From: Venturia oleaginea
Taxonomy: Eukaryota > Ascomycota > Dothideomycetes > Venturiales > Venturiaceae
Length of the DNA: 64,000 nt
Direction: 5' to 3'
Assembly: GCA_013176395.1 (NCBI GenBank)
Contig: JABMLP010000018.1
Coordinates: 930,001-994,000 of the forward strand
Shown: piece after piece, positions 3,157 through 43,327 of the stretch
Layout: each line of letters begins with the position of its first letter
Numbering within the stretch: position 1 is the first letter of the stretch
Notes under the pieces: generated by a model
The model's input: only the letters and a program-made list of their open reading frames with translations
Told to the model about the DNA's origin: nothing
The model's database searches: none
Made by a program: the position numbers and the translations under genes

Positions 3157-3786
3157 GGATGGGCAGGGTTCTTGATGAATGTTGGCGGTCAGGACCAATT
3201 TTTTGCAATTGGACGTCTGGGTTGTCCTGAGCTGCGGGCAAATGTGACGTTCGAGGGAACAGCTTTCTAGTATTATTGCCGAACTTGTGTGGTTGCTAGA
3301 AGTTGAGGACACCAGACTAGACGAGAGGTTAGCAAATGAAGGTGGGCTATGTAGAAAGTACATGCCTGGTAACTACTCCCACCATTTGTGACCAATTCAC
3401 CTCCAACCATGGTTCTCTAACTCCACTCCGACGGAAATGAATCCCTGGCAATTCACAAAATCAAACTTACCAAGGACTCTGAAGCCTCAATCTCAGTCTG
3501 GTGACTTTGATATGAATCCAGGACTTTGAAGTACCACCTAGGTACCACTCACTTTCTTCTCCACACGCTTCATTCACCTATCTCCAAACCCTTCTCCACA
3601 CCCATCGCTCACCCATCGCTCACCCATCTCCGGTCCACCTCCTCTCCCATCCACCATAAACCACCCTCCAAGCCAAACTTCACCCCAACAAACCCAAAAA
3701 GCAACCCCCCAAACCCCTCCGACACGATCTCACCATCAACCCCACCACGCTCAAAATCGCCTGTCTCACCTCCACCCTCCAAAAGC
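3157..3786. other. Intergenic, C-rich low complexity
   Basis: No gene recognised. From about 3590 to 3780 the plus strand is C- and A-rich with almost no G (many CCC/CCAAA runs), which produces spurious open frames on both strands. Confidence 0.5.
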
Positions 3787-3799
3787 AAAAAAAACAAAA
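3787..3799 (-). terminator. RNA polymerase III terminator for tRNA-Gly
   Basis: On the minus strand, 24 nt after the last acceptor-stem base of the tRNA at 3824-4004, the sequence reads TTTTGTTTTTTTT. Runs of four or more T terminate RNA polymerase III, so this is a strong terminator correctly placed for that gene. Confidence 0.75.
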
Positions 3800-3823
3800 T
3801 TCCCATCCTATCACGCACCATTC

Positions 3824-4004
3824 GCAGAAGACAGGATTCGAACCTACATATACCACACTCGTTAGTTACTATCCTTCACAGCTTGCTTGAAAGGATGGTT
3901 GGTGGAGGGGCAGATGAAATGTAGATACGTACCCGTGTCCCCCCGTGATTCCCGCAGAACGAGCGCATGGGAACGGGGTACCTTAACCACTAGGCCACTC
4001 CTGC
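3824..4004 (-). tRNA. tRNA-Gly(CCC) with two apparent introns
   Basis: Read on the minus strand, the cloverleaf folds fully once two segments are removed. Acceptor GCAGGAG pairs with CTTCTGC (one G-U); D arm GCCT-AGTGGTTA-AGGT; anticodon stem CCCCG/CGGGG with loop TTCCCAA (anticodon CCC at 3969-3971); variable loop GGAC; T stem ACGGG/CCTGT with loop TTCGAAT. The mature length is 71 nt, usual for tRNA-Gly. Intron 1 (3947-3967, 21 nt) sits after position 37 and contains GGGAA complementary to the anticodon region, as canonical tRNA introns do. Segment 2 (3844-3932, 89 nt) splits the T stem and carries GTACGT at its 5' end, a CTAAC branch-like site 17 nt before its 3' end, and TAG, i.e. the signals of a spliceosomal intron. 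The A box (TGGCCTAGTGG) and B box (GGTTCGAATCC) are both intact in the DNA. A T run follows the gene. The alternative is a pseudogene with an insertion, but the stems show no decay. Confidence 0.75.
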
Positions 4005-4606
4005 TTTTGTTAGGGAGGGGTGGTTGAGTTGGAATATGTAGTTATGAGGGAGGAGGGGGAGTAGGATTGAATCGAGATGGGTGGTGACCTGGAAATGCGG
4101 GATAAGTGAGTGGAGAGTGATCGAGCAGAGTAATGGGTGGATAGGATAGGCTCACTGAGAAAGGGCAACGATGGTGACGGACGTGAATGACATTCACTTC
4201 CTCCATGTACTTCCTTCGAGAGTTGAGGCGATACATCTTGAAGTCGTTAGCAACGGCAGCGTCAAGATGCCATAGATGGCGATGATCATAACGAGAAGAG
4301 GGATTCGAAGAGCCATCGATTAAAGAAGCCGCTAGTCTTACAACACGTAGAAATTCCTGCTGCCAGCAAATGTGTATCCCAGATCCCGGCCGCAAGTTAC
4401 CCATGATGGAGTACACCCAGATGTGTCATACAGTATTTCAAGTAATCCCATCATGCCCGCCGTGTCCACCGTGCCCGCTGTCCAGCGAATATCGAGAGAG
4501 GTATGAAGTATCGGGAAAGTAGAAAATGCCCATTCAAGTGGGTGTCATTGTTGAGCGCAGGCAAGTAGTGTCGTTAAGTATGTGGTGGGACAGCAAGCAC
4601 TCCGCT

Positions 4607-12219: not shown

Positions 12220-13883
12220 CTATCTATAATTCTGACAGTTGATTGCAAAATGGTCACCACTGCGACAAATAAAACAAGTAATTACAATGTTCTCCTCTTC
12301 ATTTGGTGGTTCTTCCTCAATATAAGGCTCTTGATCAACCTAGTTACTGCTGATAACCGAAGCTTCTTTAGAAAGTTGAAGTAAGCTTGAGCCCTCTGCA
12401 ACAGTTAAAGCGCTTGACTGACTAATATATCTCTTTTTTAGTTGCCTCTTTCGCTTCTGCCTCTCATTTGCAGCCCTTAATTTCTCATTTTCCGCAGCTA
12501 GTAAAGCGGCGCCTTGCATCGCGATCTGGCAGCCCTTGACAAGCTGATTAAGGGCCTGATCTGTTGGTCTTGGTGGACTTTTGAACGTCTCTTAAGATAG
12601 CCTTTGATTGTAGCTACCTGTAGCTCTAACTGGGTTAGATTCTGAGGTGTTTCTGGTTGCCATTGCTCTTGGTTTGCGGCCAAGGGCGCTGTAGGGGTAG
12701 ATGGCCTAATCTGGATGGTTGAAAGTACCTGATCTGGATCAAAAGGTACGAGACCGGCAGCAGTGAAGCTGCGATGAATATTGCTTAGTGTGAGGGCACT
12801 AATTCGAGCAATTTTAAAGGCGTGAAGGAACTCAATTTTGTCGATATGATTTATGCCAAGCCTCGTATATTCCGAGACTTGGTGGCCGTAGGTACGCTTG
12901 AGGACCGAAAAACAACCAATATCGAGAGGTTGAAGAAGATGTGATGAATGCGGTGGCATACAAAGAGTAATGATCATCCGGTCTGCACAAAATTGATCAA
13001 AATCTGGCGTTGCGTGGCTGCCGTGGCCATCCAGAATTAGTAGTCGATAACTACCAACCTTTCTTGCAGCTGTATTTGGCTCGAAAACCTCTTTTAACCA
13101 ATGTAATCCAAGCTTGTCATTAGTCCATCCATTTGTACTCAAAGCGATTGTCCAATCAGGCGATAAATTGTTGTTTTCGTACCAAGATGATATATGTACC
13201 TTGCCTTTGAAGATCACCATCGGCGGGAGGCTCCAACCCAGCGCATTGATCGATTCGATTGCCGTAACCCATTCGCGATCGCCAGGCTGTAATTGAGGGG
13301 GTCTGCCACGCCTATCTGAGGCAGTAACTACGCGTGAGGTACTTGCAAGGCCCATTGCAAAGCCAGTTTCGTCGAAGTTGTAGATATCGTTATTGAGGAT
13401 GCCGTATTTAGCGATTGTGTTTTGTACAAGCCGAAACCAGGCCCCAATAAGGGCTGGATCTTCGCATCTTGCCCTTTGATTATCGTAGCTGCGTGAATAT
13501 CGCGATATGAGGCTAGGGCGGCGGTTGATGTATCGCTGAGGCCAATTGACACCGATTGTGCAATCTGAGCCTACACGCTGCTCGAGTACGATTTTTGCCG
13601 CATCGCGTACCCCAGTAACGGTCAATGGATAACCTCTTTCATCCATAGATAGTATCCAATGCTCAACGACCTCCTCTTCTGTATCCGTAAGCTTTTGGCA
13701 ATTTGGGCGCGAATCGACGCGTGAAGCGCGTCCGCGAAGGCGGGAGGCAAGGGAAGTAAATGGGACAGAATAGGCATCAGCGGCCCTTCGAATACTTGGA
13801 AAATGGCCTTTCAAATAAGCGTCATGAGCAAGGAGTAGTTGACCCTCTTTCTGGGCCTTTGTATTGACTAGTTGTGGTGGCAT
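12220..13883 (-). pseudogene. Fot1/pogo-type transposase, frameshifted and with a stop
   Basis: Starts at ATG 13883 (MPPQLVNTKAQKEG). The N-terminal helix-turn-helix/CENP-B-like region ends near residue 130. The catalytic domain shows YNFDETGF, LLILDGHGSHAT and PPHSSHLLQPLDIGCF, supplying the three catalytic Asp. The uninterrupted frame ends at 12498 after 461 codons, but the natural C terminus continues in another frame: one A appears to be lost from the A run at about 12579-12582. The recovered frame runs through a charged coiled-coil-like segment, meets an in-frame TAG at 12340-12342, then encodes a CCHC knuckle (C-x2-C-x4-H-x4-C) and ends at 12220. There are therefore two independent lesions. 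The zinc knuckle tail is known from several fungal Fot1-class transposases. Confidence 0.88.
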
Positions 13884-13890
13884 TGTGGTT

Positions 13891-23005: not shown

Positions 23006-26000
23006 CTACAACGCAAACCGAAATAAATTCCCCATACTAACCCACTGCCGTCCATTCCTCGCCAAAAACTCCTTAACAACAGCCCTCACAGTCCCAAACC
23101 TAAGCCGATTATGCTCGGCAAGCAACCGAACCTCATCCTTCCTATCCCCCTTAAGTACACCCTCCCTCGCCATCGTCTCCACCTTCTCCCTAGCCCTCTC
23201 AACATCAAACATACTCCCCAGAAACAGGAGCTGGTTATAAAGTGCCTTCTCCGTATATTCCTGTTGCATACGTCCAAGACAACCCATACCCAATCCCTTA
23301 GGACCGAGACAACGGTGTCCATAGACGCAGACTTGGCGGGTACGGTTACCGCATTGGGGGTCGTCACAAATGAGCCGGTTGGCGTAGTAGCGGGAGATGT
23401 GTTGGCGAACTTGAGTTTCCAGTTGTGCAACGATGGTTATGGTTGGGAGAAGACGTTGACACGCAGCATTGGGACATTGAAGGCCGTCGTTTGTAACGAC
23501 GGCTTCTTGCCGTTCGTCTTCTGTTCGGGTGGTCGGTGGGACGATACCACGGAAGTCGAAGGAAGATTTACATGCCAGACATCTCAGTTGCAATGGCAAT
23601 GCTTCCTTGAACCTCACAGAGTCGGGGATTTGAGACTCAAGAGGCTGCAACTCTTCTGCCCGGCTGGACGAAGTTGCCGAGACGGTGCTGACGCGGTATT
23701 TGCTCGTATCCAAGCCCAGACAATCAGCAAGTTGGGTGATATTCGTCCCGCTGATCGGCGCGCAAAGACGTTCAACTGGCGGCAGAATCTGTTTGTGTAG
23801 ATAGTAGTCGATATCCGGTTTTAGTCCAGAATCGGCTTTGAGGATGTCTTCGAGAGGGTAGGCGTTCTTTGCTGCTGCCTCCGCAGAGCCATTGCTTTGA
23901 CCTGTGATGATGAAGGACATTACGTCTTTGGCTTTGATATTCTTGCCCTTTGCGATTTGACGGAGGGCGACTTGGACGGAAGGCATTGAACCGCCATTGG
24001 GGTATTCTTTTGGTGCTTTTCCAAGTTGGGTGAAGATCGTGTAGGCTTGGACTGGAACTTGATAGTCACGCATGCGAGTGGCGAGGGCTCGGAGATATTC
24101 GTGTATATTCTCGACAACGGTGTCCGGTTCATCGCCGGAGAGCAAGAAGCCGAGGAGTTTCCTTAAATGTTGTTAGCAGTGTAAGCAATGAAAAGCAGAG
24201 TTTACTCACGATGACGTTTCTTTTGAAAGGGCGCAGTATTCTCGCCGTCTCATATCAAGACCTTTGACCTCGAGCTTCTCAACAAACTTGCCATCAATTT
24301 CGACCATATTAATAGCAGCATACTTCTTCTTAGCGTGCAACAAGATCCGACGGAACACATTGTCAATATCGATCTCAAGAAGTCGGTAGCGCTCGTTGAC
24401 AGCCTTCTTGAAGCCTCTTCCAATCGCGAGTGCCTCCTGGATGTTGTCTTTATTCGTGTTGATCATGACTGAATCAGTATCACCATAGATGACACGAAGC
24501 GAATCCTGTTCAGCAAGCTCCTTGGTGCTCTGCAAAATCTCACGGCCTTTGTATGTTGTGAGCATGGCCAGTGGTCGAGCGTAGAATCGAGACTTGGTGT
24601 AACCCAAACAGCCATACATGGAGTTGGCTGTGAGTTTGAGGGCAAGTTGTTTAATGTCATAAGTAGCAAGCTGGTCTGGAGTGGCCGTCTTATCCTTCAT
24701 CAGTTTCTTGACTTCTCGTCGACGATTGACAAGAGTAGCAATGAGCTTCGGGAGAATTCCAAGGGCCTGATCTGCTGGAACATCTGGAACCTGTTCTTCA
24801 TCTTCGCGCAGGTTGGCGCGTTCAACTGTGGTGAAGCAAATGTTGTACTCCTGGATGATCGATGGGTACAAACTGTTGAAGTCCATGACCAGGATGAACT
24901 TGTCATAAAGGCCCTTTTCAGGCTCAAAGACGAGACCCCCCTTGAACTTGTCTTTCTTCTTCGCGTCGACGCCTTCCTCGCCATCGGCTGGCTCTTCTTC
25001 GATCTTCTGCTTTCCTTTGCCCCAAATCTTGTCCGGGCAGATGTACTTGTTGCGATGAAATTCGTGTAACAGAATGTACTCGTTTCTTTCAGCCCTCGTT
25101 CCACTCAATGTACGAGCCCATGAGTTACCGGCAAGATTGGTGAGGACTTTCGTCAGAGGCAGCATTTGTGTCTTAATGGCAATCGCGGCAATGAAAAAGG
25201 TGTCGGCCTCGCAGTGCTGGACATAGTTCATCAGGCCTTCCCTCTCCAAGGCCCATGTTTTGAGAACAGCTTCGTTGTCGAGTTCCAGTCGTACGTGGTT
25301 CTTTCCAAGTACCAGTTCACACATCTCGTTCAAACTCCATGACTGGCACTTCATCATGAGCGATTTCCCCATGTCGTTGGCTAAATCAACGAGAAGCCGA
25401 CCAGAGGCCAGTTGTCGTTCAGCAAAGAAGCTGCCACCTCCTCGCCCAAAGTTCTTAGGCCAGTCGCTTCTTCGAACACGGCCAATACGATGCCAGCCTG
25501 GAGTTTTTCGTTCTTTCATTCTGCTTAGAAGAATACCAAAATCGACATCATCAAGCTTATGACCCATGAGGACGTCTGGATCCATCTTCGCTAGAATGGC
25601 CATAAACTTGCTAAGAAGATCTCGCTCGTTTTTCTCCAACATAATCGTTCCCTTATGCTTGGGAACCTCGAGTTTTTCGAAACCTGTGGGATATGCCTCC
25701 GCGATAGGATGCATGATAGTAAAGCTCTTGCAGGGCATCTTCTCAGGCGGTGTCGTGTCTCCAAGGATAACATTCTCGTATATTCTGGCACTGATCATTA
25801 AGATTTCCTGTTTGTTGTTCTCTGAATTGAAGGTGGTACGCAGAGCAAGGCTCATCAGGGTCAAAGGCGGCACGTCCAAGTTATCTGATTCGCCCAGGGT
25901 GGATATGTGTTGTGGCTGATCAACCAAGAGTTCTAGCTTGCACCAGGAAGCGTTGTTGAGGGCTTGGAAATTCGCGCCTTGGATGTTCAGCCAGCATGGG

Positions 26001-27568
26001 CCCATAATATTCTTCCAGAGAACAAATTGTTCGAAAAGCGAGGTGTTGGTGCCAAAGACGTGTGAGAAGGTCTCTCCCGTGAGGTCATTTGAGAGTCCTT
26101 GCTTGTCGTATGGATATAGCAGCTTCAGATAGTCGGCCTTCTTTGGGATTCCTGGTATTTCAAATGCATATTTCCTCTCACAGGGCTTGATTTTGAATTG
26201 GCCCACTCTGAGCTTGCTCATGATGCCATCCACTTCGTTGTAGACGTCGCTCATGCCAATCTCCTCATCAGTCGGCTGTCCATGTTTTTGGCGGAATTCT
26301 CTTGGGAGAAAGAACAATTTCCGCAAAATGTTATCGACCTTAACAAAACAACTGACGAAATTCCCCGTGCTCTTATTCTTAACCTTTCCGAACAGACACA
26401 AACTCCCGAGAATTTCAGTGTAATCAGTCCAGAAAAAGTTGAGACTCCCGTCCTCTTCCACAGCATGTTGTGGATTTAGTTTGCCTACATTCGACGCGAC
26501 CTGAGGTCCAACAGGGCTGTTCATAACGTTCAGGCTTTCATTCAGTCGATTCCAAGCGGAGGCATCGACAACTGGTCCCGCAGGCGAAGAAGGGAATGCT
26601 GTCGGTTGTGGTGCAGCTTTGAACTTTGGAGCGGGTCGCTTTCCAGACATGTTGATCGATGCTCCAGCAAATACTGACTGGCCAATTGGTTGTGCAATAT
26701 CAAGGCCATCATCTTCCTCCTCTTCCTCGACTTTAACAGCCGGTTGCGATCTTCGTTCAACGGCTTTCATGACAGGAGAAGAGGGTAGCAGGTCGCTCAT
26801 GAACACATCGTCCTCCATAGGGGTATATCCGTCATCGTCGTCCATCGTAGCCTCGGCGGGAAGTGAGTCCACGGCGGCCGTTTGACTGGAGTCTATTCGA
26901 GAGGAGAGTTTTGGTTGGCGTTTCATTATTGGAGAAAGGACTCGAGTTTTCCGTCTGTATTCGTCCTTGACTGGTTTCATGCGAATAGCAGGACGGCTCG
27001 GTACGTTAACATCGACTTCTCCGAGCAAATCTGCCATGAACGCGTCGTCATCGGCGGTCTTGACGGGCTATTAGGTTGTCAGCTCTTAGTCCATAACCCC
27101 GAGAGATCATTGTACCTTTGATTTGGGTGCCGTAGTTGTGACCTTGGCTGTGAAATAATTGCTGATGCCATTCTTGATCTTCTTCTTTTTTTCATCGTCC
27201 TCTTCCCGTTTTCGTTTGGCTACCAGAACGCGTCAGTACAGTCTTCCCATTGCAATATGCACCGATTTTTGCATACCGGCCGTTCCCCGGGGAGTATTGT
27301 CCTCTTCTTCACTTGAATAGCCAGCGCGACGGCCATCTTCCCAATCCTCTTCCCGGCCATCGTCGGCATATCCTTCGCCATTGTCGTCGACAACGAAGTC
27401 GTCCTGGTCCAGACGTCCCCTCACAACTTTCTTGTAGCCCTCTTCATCGACCTCATCATAAATGTTGACTTCTTCCTCGACTTGGTAATCGTTGTCGCGT
27501 TTCCCCCCAGCGCGGGCTTTCTTGAGTTTTTCGAGCTGAGCTAAACGGGCTGCTCGTTTGGAGGACAT
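23006..27568 (-). CDS. POL1: DNA polymerase alpha catalytic subunit
   Basis: Nuclear B-family polymerase that with primase lays down RNA-DNA primers for replication. Four exons on the minus strand: 27277-27568, 27116-27219, 24210-27067 and 23006-24161; phases agree, giving 1469 aa, almost exactly the yeast length. The N terminus (MSSKRAARLAQLEKLKKARA) is followed by an acidic linker. Catalytic motif A DFNSLYPSIIQEYN is near residue 858, motif B KLTANSMYGCLGYTKSRF near 944, and motif C YGDTDS near 990. The C-terminal domain has two Cys clusters (LRCLACKSS...GLQCPNAACQ, and LICDDPQCGNRT with VYGHRC), the zinc and B-subunit-binding region. The last intron (24162-24209) has an AAG acceptor. The gene shares a 340-bp upstream region with REX2. 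Confidence 0.98.
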
Positions 27569-43245: not shown

Positions 43246-43327
43246 GGGGATGTGGCTCAGTGGTAGAGCGCCCGCTTTGCATCTTGCAATTTGCGGGAGG
43301 CCCAGGTTTCGATCACCTGCTTCTCCA
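43246..43327 (+). tRNA. tRNA-Ala(UGC) with 10-nt intron
   Basis: Acceptor GGGGATG with CTTCTCC (one G-U, one T-T mismatch at the sixth pair), D arm GCTC-AGTGGTA-GAGC, anticodon stem CCCGC/GCGGG with loop TTTGCAT (anticodon TGC at 43278-43280), variable loop AGGCC, T arm CAGGT-TTCGATC-ACCTG, discriminator A. The 10-nt intron 43282-43291 follows A37 and contains TTGCAA, complementary to the anticodon, as expected for endonuclease-processed introns. The acceptor mismatch is unusual but the gene has a good upstream AT tract and a terminator, so I regard it as functional. Confidence 0.88.

Follow-up and report, generated by a model that had tools for sequence, protein, structure and literature searches.

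Candidate spliceosomal introns in many nuclear tRNA genes of a Venturia-like fungus

A tRNA-Gly(CCC) gene in a Venturia-like genome (Dothideomycetes; 46.08 Mb, 61 contigs) carries, in addition to an ordinary intron beside the anticodon, an 89-nt insert in its T arm. Judged from the DNA, this insert is very probably a U2-type spliceosomal intron in a gene transcribed by RNA polymerase III (Pol III), and a dual route of the same kind would apply to many nuclear tRNAs. We describe the anatomy of the DNA, its splice and branch signals, the structures restored when the inserts are removed, the conservation of the exons and a comparison with paralogues. Textbook accounts assign mRNA and a small number of other RNAs to the spliceosome and leave tRNA introns to a protein endonuclease. 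Many tRNAs bearing spliceosomal introns in one genome would break this division, make translation capacity dependent on the spliceosome and mean that Pol III transcripts beyond U6 can be spliced on a large scale.

A tRNA-Gly(CCC) gene with two kinds of intron

The gene lies in a window of 64,000 nucleotides, positions 930001-994000 of contig C10, the whole stretch of DNA that was analysed, and is made up as follows:

3823..4004, minus strand: tRNA-Gly(CCC) gene with two introns of different kinds (RF00005, 34 bits; ARAGORN; 21 of 21 stem pairs)
3968..4004, minus strand: exon 1, tRNA positions 1-37 (ARAGORN, coordinates checked)
3987..3997, minus strand: A box TGGCCTAGTGG, intact
3947..3967, minus strand: canonical 21-nt intron of endonuclease type after position 37 (ARAGORN; the canonical-intron site of the genome)
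3933..3946, minus strand: exon 2, positions 38-52 (ARAGORN)
3844..3932, minus strand: 89-nt spliceosomal-type intron in the T stem (52/53), GTACGT...CTAAC...TAG (ARAGORN, signals)
3927..3932, minus strand: 5' splice site GTACGT of the 89-nt intron
3861..3865, minus strand: branch motif CTAAC, with its A 18 nt from the end of the 89-nt intron
3844..3846, minus strand: 3' splice site TAG of the 89-nt intron, the G of which also completes the B box
3834..3844, minus strand: B box GGTTCGAATCC, complete with and without the 89-nt intron
3823..3843, minus strand: exon 3, positions 53-73 (ARAGORN)
3787..3799, minus strand: a T4 run 23 nt downstream followed by a T8 run at 28 nt, a candidate Pol III terminator

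This two-intron anatomy had been proposed in an earlier reading made without database searches (the sequence-only reading), and ARAGORN bears it out: once 3844-3932 is deleted, the program returns a tRNA-Gly(CCC) cloverleaf with the 21-nt intron. In the spliced form 21 of 21 stem pairs (7, 4, 5 and 5) are present and the invariant bases tested are all in place. The unspliced sequence, by comparison, is forced into a single 88-nt intron with a T stem taken partly from the insert. Two details of that reading shift by one nucleotide. The gene is on the minus strand as stated, but it ends with the discriminator at 3823 rather than at 3824, giving a mature tRNA of 72 nt including base 73; and while the GTACGT start, the CTAAC and the TAG end are all in the sequence, the branch A lies 18 nt from the 3' end, not 17. 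The Rfam tRNA model RF00005 scores the unspliced locus (3823-4004, minus strand) at 34 bits against a gathering score of 29, skipping 118 positions and composing the variable loop and T stem partly from the insert.

The 21-nt intron lies at the canonical 37/38 site, and its GGGAA can pair with the TTCCC of the anticodon loop. The 89-nt insert, at 52/53, is outside that site and has the features of a U2-type intron, namely GT with G at position 5, AG at the end, a CTRAY/YTRAY branch motif and the length of an mRNA intron. The predicted junction of the spliced exons joins ACGG to GTTCGAATCC. The intron's last G doubles as the opening G of the B box, so that GGTTCGAATCC is complete both before and after splicing, as the sequence-only reading had recognized. 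As in a functional tRNA gene, the A and B boxes are unchanged at 11 of 11 bases and a T run follows at +23. In the predicted fold of the unspliced RNA a shifted T stem closes a long hairpin that contains the intron, an arrangement that would place the two splice sites close together. An Rfam scan found no group I or group II ribozyme core: the whole window gave two tRNA matches, and 3700-4100 the tRNA only.

The earlier reading had reasoned that an uninterrupted Gly(CCC) gene elsewhere, together with decay of this copy, would mark it as a pseudogene. A genome-wide DNA search with the whole gene returned the gene itself alone, and neither the stems nor the invariant bases show the losses expected of a pseudogene.

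Two further features of the window may be mentioned. A tRNA-Ala(TGC) at 43246-43327 (plus strand) has a canonical 10-nt intron only, and an open reading frame at 12501-13889 (minus strand) encodes a transposase with DDE superfamily endonuclease, HTH_psq and Tc5 DNA-binding domains.

A census of interrupted tRNA genes

A first tRNA search of the genome, blind to splice signals, gave 58 matches and revealed four further interrupted T arms, in Arg(TCT) (L046), Ser(AGA) (L047 and L052) and Ser(GCT) (L049); the Rfam model scored only 63 of 1697 candidates in this search, so it is no census. More loci were reached by combining branch-site with B-box patterns and B-box with terminator patterns and fetching small stretches. 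The B-box patterns demand a certain form of B box and a nearby T run, and part of the listed places was fetched; the counts below are therefore to be read as 'at least'. Alone, the branch-site and B-box patterns were unenriched relative to reversed controls (18 versus 16, 13 versus 15 and 6 versus 8 matches), and 7, 0 and 1 of the 18, 13 and 6 matches were interrupted tRNA genes. It is solely by the tRNA structure upstream that the true cases can be told apart.

For each T loop, our parser tests the removal of at most two GT..AG stretches, each 44-95 nt long, and, optionally, of a canonical intron, and scores the acceptor, D, anticodon and T stems while ignoring branch sites. The final version slightly raises the score for a purine at position 3, for G at position 5 and for any 3' end but GAG; it sees introns up to position 53, with the acceptor stem and everything downstream of 53 outside its view. 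This approach yielded 84 distinct nuclear tRNA parses, 48 of them without a GT..AG cut, 30 accepted with one or two and 6 rejected. The proportion 30/84 is not an unbiased frequency, as some loci were fetched through intron patterns. Overall, the accepted set comprises 40 GT..AG introns in 30 tRNA genes, several of which have two introns and one of which, L080, is a decayed copy. None of 3000 decoys built from dinucleotide-shuffled upstream sequence was accepted. The anticodon called by ARAGORN agreed with the parser in 27 of the 30 genes after splicing versus 3 of 30 before it, so that tRNA finders can miss such genes.

For nine anticodons every parsed gene was intron-bearing, although the census is incomplete: Pro(CGG) and Pro(TGG) (two each), Trp(CCA) (one), Leu(AAG) (three), Leu(CAG) (two) and Arg(TCT), Arg(CCG), Ile(TAT) and Gly(CCC) (one each). 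Three Pro loci read by hand, one of them (L134) readable only in part, were also intron-bearing. Among the 84 parses of this incomplete census there was no intronless Pro, Trp, Leu(AAG) or Leu(CAG) gene. No fungus lives without cytosolic tRNA-Pro and tRNA-Trp, and if the census is fair the interrupted tRNAs must therefore be spliced. It is likely that a large part of the nuclear tRNA set depends on the spliceosome for its maturation, with tRNA-Pro and tRNA-Trp (all those found) and several isoacceptors for Leu, Arg, Ile and Gly among them, and that some of these tRNAs pass through two unrelated splicing machines. Pre-mRNA splicing would then be a condition for translating proline, tryptophan and many leucine codons.

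Six further loci were read by hand (L099, L107, L109, L134 in part, L152 and L163). Below the parser thresholds were the second site at L077, L090, L103, L134 and L152, of which L134 (partly) and L152 were read by hand as Pro. One locus, L113 (G000:C7:1014030-1014280), was weighed as a second Gly(CCC) gene: ARAGORN reads Gly(CCC) there with an intron at an odd position, and the parse is weak and has no branch site. It was dropped from the accepted set by hand, though its score (16.45) and its 19 pairs passed; this locus may yet be a second Gly(CCC) gene. Both L113 and L090 are tRNA-like, and their long inserts, in or close to the anticodon loop, are neither canonical nor GT..AG.

Other tRNA-like sequences were seen along the way. 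About 100 nt downstream of Leu(TAG), L077 is a truncated tandem copy of intron and 3' exon, apparently decayed. L166, L168, L171 and other listed places have an end resembling the 3' half of tRNA-Tyr and a T run without a recognizable 5' half, and are possibly a tRNA-derived repeat; L131-L133 and L156-L159 are tRNA-like 3' ends without a parse. L050 and L051 are identical tRNA-like sequences with CCA ends and identical 15-nt flanks, one of them near the end of contig C19. Lastly, the small contig G000:C58 (18945 bp), perhaps a mitochondrial plasmid, carries two tRNA-Arg(TCG) genes (L021 and L022) in opposite orientation.

Splice signals and lengths

Within the search range of 44-95 nt, 38 of the 40 introns measure 48-58 nt, one 69 nt and one, that of Gly(CCC), 89 nt, the longest. 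G stands at intron position 5 in 39 of 40 (the parser requires GT and AG and gives a small bonus for this G) and T at position 6 in 29 of 40; 37 of 40 end in CAG or TAG, ends that a parser bonus slightly favours. A YTRAY motif with its A 7-20 nt from the intron end is found in 34 of 36 introns, against a mean of 6.0 and a maximum of 15 in shuffled sequences, leaving two accepted introns without such a site. These 36 exclude L073, L077 and L080, which had been fetched via the branch pattern, and include the window's own intron, the CTAAC of which the sequence-only reading had already pointed out. When the cut sites were left free in 20 single-intron genes, a GT..AG cut was among the equally best in 14, where the summed chances amount to about 2, and another cut scored better in the remaining 6.

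The reference form of an mRNA intron (GT..AG, CTRAY) was taken from the three introns of the DNA polymerase alpha (Pol1) gene only, which were checked against a homologous protein:

27220..27276, minus strand: Pol1 mRNA intron 1, 57 nt, CTGAC, A 13 nt from the end
27068..27115, minus strand: Pol1 mRNA intron 2, 48 nt, CTGAC, A 11 nt from the end
24162..24209, minus strand: Pol1 mRNA intron 3, 48 nt, CTAAC, A 11 nt from the end

Without these introns Pol1 encodes 1469 amino acids, 94.8% identical to the V. inaequalis protein P0001, and a Pol1 fragment likewise had its best match in Venturia inaequalis (95% identical). The Gly(CCC) insert shares the form of all three, in keeping with the earlier remark that it resembles the mRNA introns of this genome. 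Other open reading frames of the window were tried as references and set aside, as joining them gave ambiguous introns.

These signals bear on a first alternative, that the inserts are non-canonical bulge-helix-bulge (BHB) introns cut by the tRNA endonuclease and that their GT..AG look is incidental. Archaea, red algae and nucleomorphs do have tRNA introns at unusual positions, and the presence of anticodon-loop introns suggests an active endonuclease in this genome. Those same canonical introns serve as an internal control, however, and none of 19 is GT..AG; the inserts also have the lengths of the Pol1 mRNA introns, and the branch motif occurs in 34 of 36 introns that were not fetched by it. 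A strict 4-bp central BHB helix was present in none of 27 inserts, though by the same rule in none of the 19 canonical introns either, and the inserts averaged 1.15 pairs versus 1.50 by chance under a rule that does not discriminate. Cutting by the endonuclease is, on this evidence, very improbable, and excision by the spliceosome remains the preferred reading.

A second alternative takes the inserts for copies of one mobile element, such as an introner-like element or a MITE, with splice-like ends that arose by chance. Introner-like elements are known from Dothideomycetes, and different tRNA families have insertion sites in common. Nevertheless, 13 introns compared for similarity shared a single 10-nt match (E 0.022), and the whole Gly(CCC) gene with its intron had no other match in the genome by DNA search, which leaves this explanation with hardly any probability; a mobile-element origin would in any case be compatible with spliceosomal removal. 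Exact intron-exon junction patterns had no match in the viral contigs or prokaryote genomes searched.

Intron sites and Pol III promoter boxes

The spliceosomal-type introns occur in the D arm, the anticodon stem, the variable loop and the T arm, at the following sites (numbering from our own reading of the parses):

9/10: Ile(TAT)
11/12: Tyr
13/14: Lys(TTT)
15/16: Pro, Ala(AGC), Gly(GCC)
18/19: Leu(CAG) L108, Arg(CCG)
about 20/21: Gly(TCC), Gly(GCC), Pro L125, Cys
before the 3' strand of the D stem: Leu
26/27: Pro
29/30: Ser(GCT)
variable loop: Trp
50/51 to 53/54: T-arm introns

The B box is kept in all genes of a set of 20, with no fewer than 10 of its 11 bases matching the spliced form; often it is the AG of the intron that supplies the missing G. 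In the same set the distance from A box to B box is lengthened by introns to as much as 192 nt, and Pol III recruitment via the B box is probably retained in the interrupted genes. A run of four or more T was found within up to 40 nt downstream in 19 of 20 genes. The generalization that all introns spare the A box was tried and abandoned: it is true of the 20-gene set (at least 10 of 11 bases), but introns found later at 11/12, 13/14 and 15/16 cut the A box. In the Ser(GCT) genes L049, L073 and L102 exon position 52 is T, and the B-box G at this place comes solely from the intron; their B box would consequently be weaker without the intron.

Paralogues and gene integrity

For some families the genome holds the same tRNA with and without introns, intronless paralogues being L013, L018, L031, L043, L104, L112, L136, L139, L141, L160 and L169; with such pairs nature itself offers an experiment in intron gain. 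Once its 53-nt intron is taken out, Ser(AGA) L047 matches the intronless L013 at 81 of 81 bases, and exon agreement is 78/81 for L052 with L031, 73/81 for L049 with L018 and 77/81 for L073 with L018. Between intron-bearing copies, the exons of Ser(GCT) L073 and L102, with two introns each, agree at 81 of 81 bases and their introns at 0.55 and 0.57, within the shuffled range; the exons of Arg(TCT) L046 and L099 agree at 71 of 72, with introns again within the shuffled range. Nine pairs of introns were compared in all, and a single one, the D introns of L106 and L109, lay above the shuffled maximum (0.68 versus 0.61).

The T stems that pair across the intron differ in sequence between genes (ACGGG/CCTGT, GCGGG/CCCGC, ACAGG/CCTGT, GAGTG/CACTC and GAGGG/CCCTC), and that of Ser(GCT) differs from the intronless L018 (AAGAG/CTCTT) in both strands. 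Of the 20 genes checked, 14 retain complete acceptor, anticodon and T stems together with all the invariant bases tested; the other 6 had some defect or were unparsed in that check.

The intronless paralogues invite a third explanation, in which the interrupted genes are pseudogenes hit by insertions and function rests with the intronless copies. Structural defects are indeed present in at least five of the copies with introns. Defects are seen in L099 (A at position 33), L080 (mismatched stems), L107 (T stem one base short), L109 (a D-stem change), L111 (D-loop GA for GG) and L120 (two mismatches). Against this, the 14 of 20 genes just described keep their stems and tested invariant bases, the exons of several copies are identical or close to those of paralogues, splice and branch signals are unexpected in insertions into pseudogenes, and for several tRNAs, Pro, Trp, Leu(AAG) and Leu(CAG) among them, the parses contain no intronless copy. 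We regard a general pseudogene status as highly unlikely and retain spliceosomal introns as the explanation.

Other Pol III RNAs

Seven U6 matches were found (L058-L064, L064 being partial). Introns of the same form are clear in the 5' part of L058, L059, L061 and L063, and L062 and L063 have a further intron inside the conserved region. The 33 matches to 5S rRNA (32 of 120-121 nt and one of 106 nt) have no introns, and the single SRP RNA match (266 nt) covers the whole model. Introns are accordingly not everywhere in Pol III genes, with the reservation that interrupted copies of these RNAs could be missed.

A proposed route and its relation to known systems

Transcription, spliceosomal excision, the order of the steps and the function of the tRNA are what we infer from these observations. 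In the route we propose, Pol III would use the intact A and B boxes to make a Gly(CCC) precursor with two introns, the spliceosome would cut the GT..AG intron out of the T arm by the lariat pathway, and the tRNA endonuclease and ligase would remove the 21-nt intron beside the anticodon, leaving a normal tRNA-Gly(CCC). The same dual route would serve many nuclear tRNAs, namely those for Leu, Pro, Ser, Arg, Gly, Tyr, Trp, Cys, Lys, Ala and Ile. That this tRNA may need both the endonuclease and the spliceosome had been suggested by the sequence-only reading; it stands as the best explanation, and on firmer ground than could then be known, because introns of the same kind recur in about 30 tRNA genes and at several positions.

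Canonical tRNA introns, at 37/38 and removed by endonuclease and ligase, likewise interrupt a tRNA, and one of them sits in the same gene (3947-3967). The new introns differ from these in lying elsewhere in the tRNA, in being mostly 48-58 nt long and in having a 5' splice site, a branch site and an AG end. The BHB introns of archaea, red algae and nucleomorphs also occupy positions beyond 37/38, several per gene, but are recognized by RNA structure, whereas the signals here are spliceosomal. Fission yeast and other fungi have U6 snRNA genes with mRNA-type introns. These offer the parallel of a spliceosomal intron in a small structured Pol III RNA, as also in the U6 genes of this genome; U6, however, is part of the spliceosome, while here the host is a tRNA, many families are involved and an endonuclease-type intron is often alongside.

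A 2017 paper on fungal U3 names U3 and U6 as the sole small structured RNAs so far known to be often interrupted by introns (PMC5832005). As described there, the U3 snoRNA introns are similar in being short, GT..AG, within a structured RNA and present in some paralogues of a genome and absent from others, and are dissimilar in host RNA and number of families (PMC5832005). According to a further paper, the spliceosome takes no part in the splicing of tRNA (PMC13149111). Among the open-access matches listed, judged by titles and the starts of abstracts, we found no report of spliceosomal introns in tRNA. The spliceosome and its U6 precedent are already known; it is the class of substrate, tRNA, that appears to be new.
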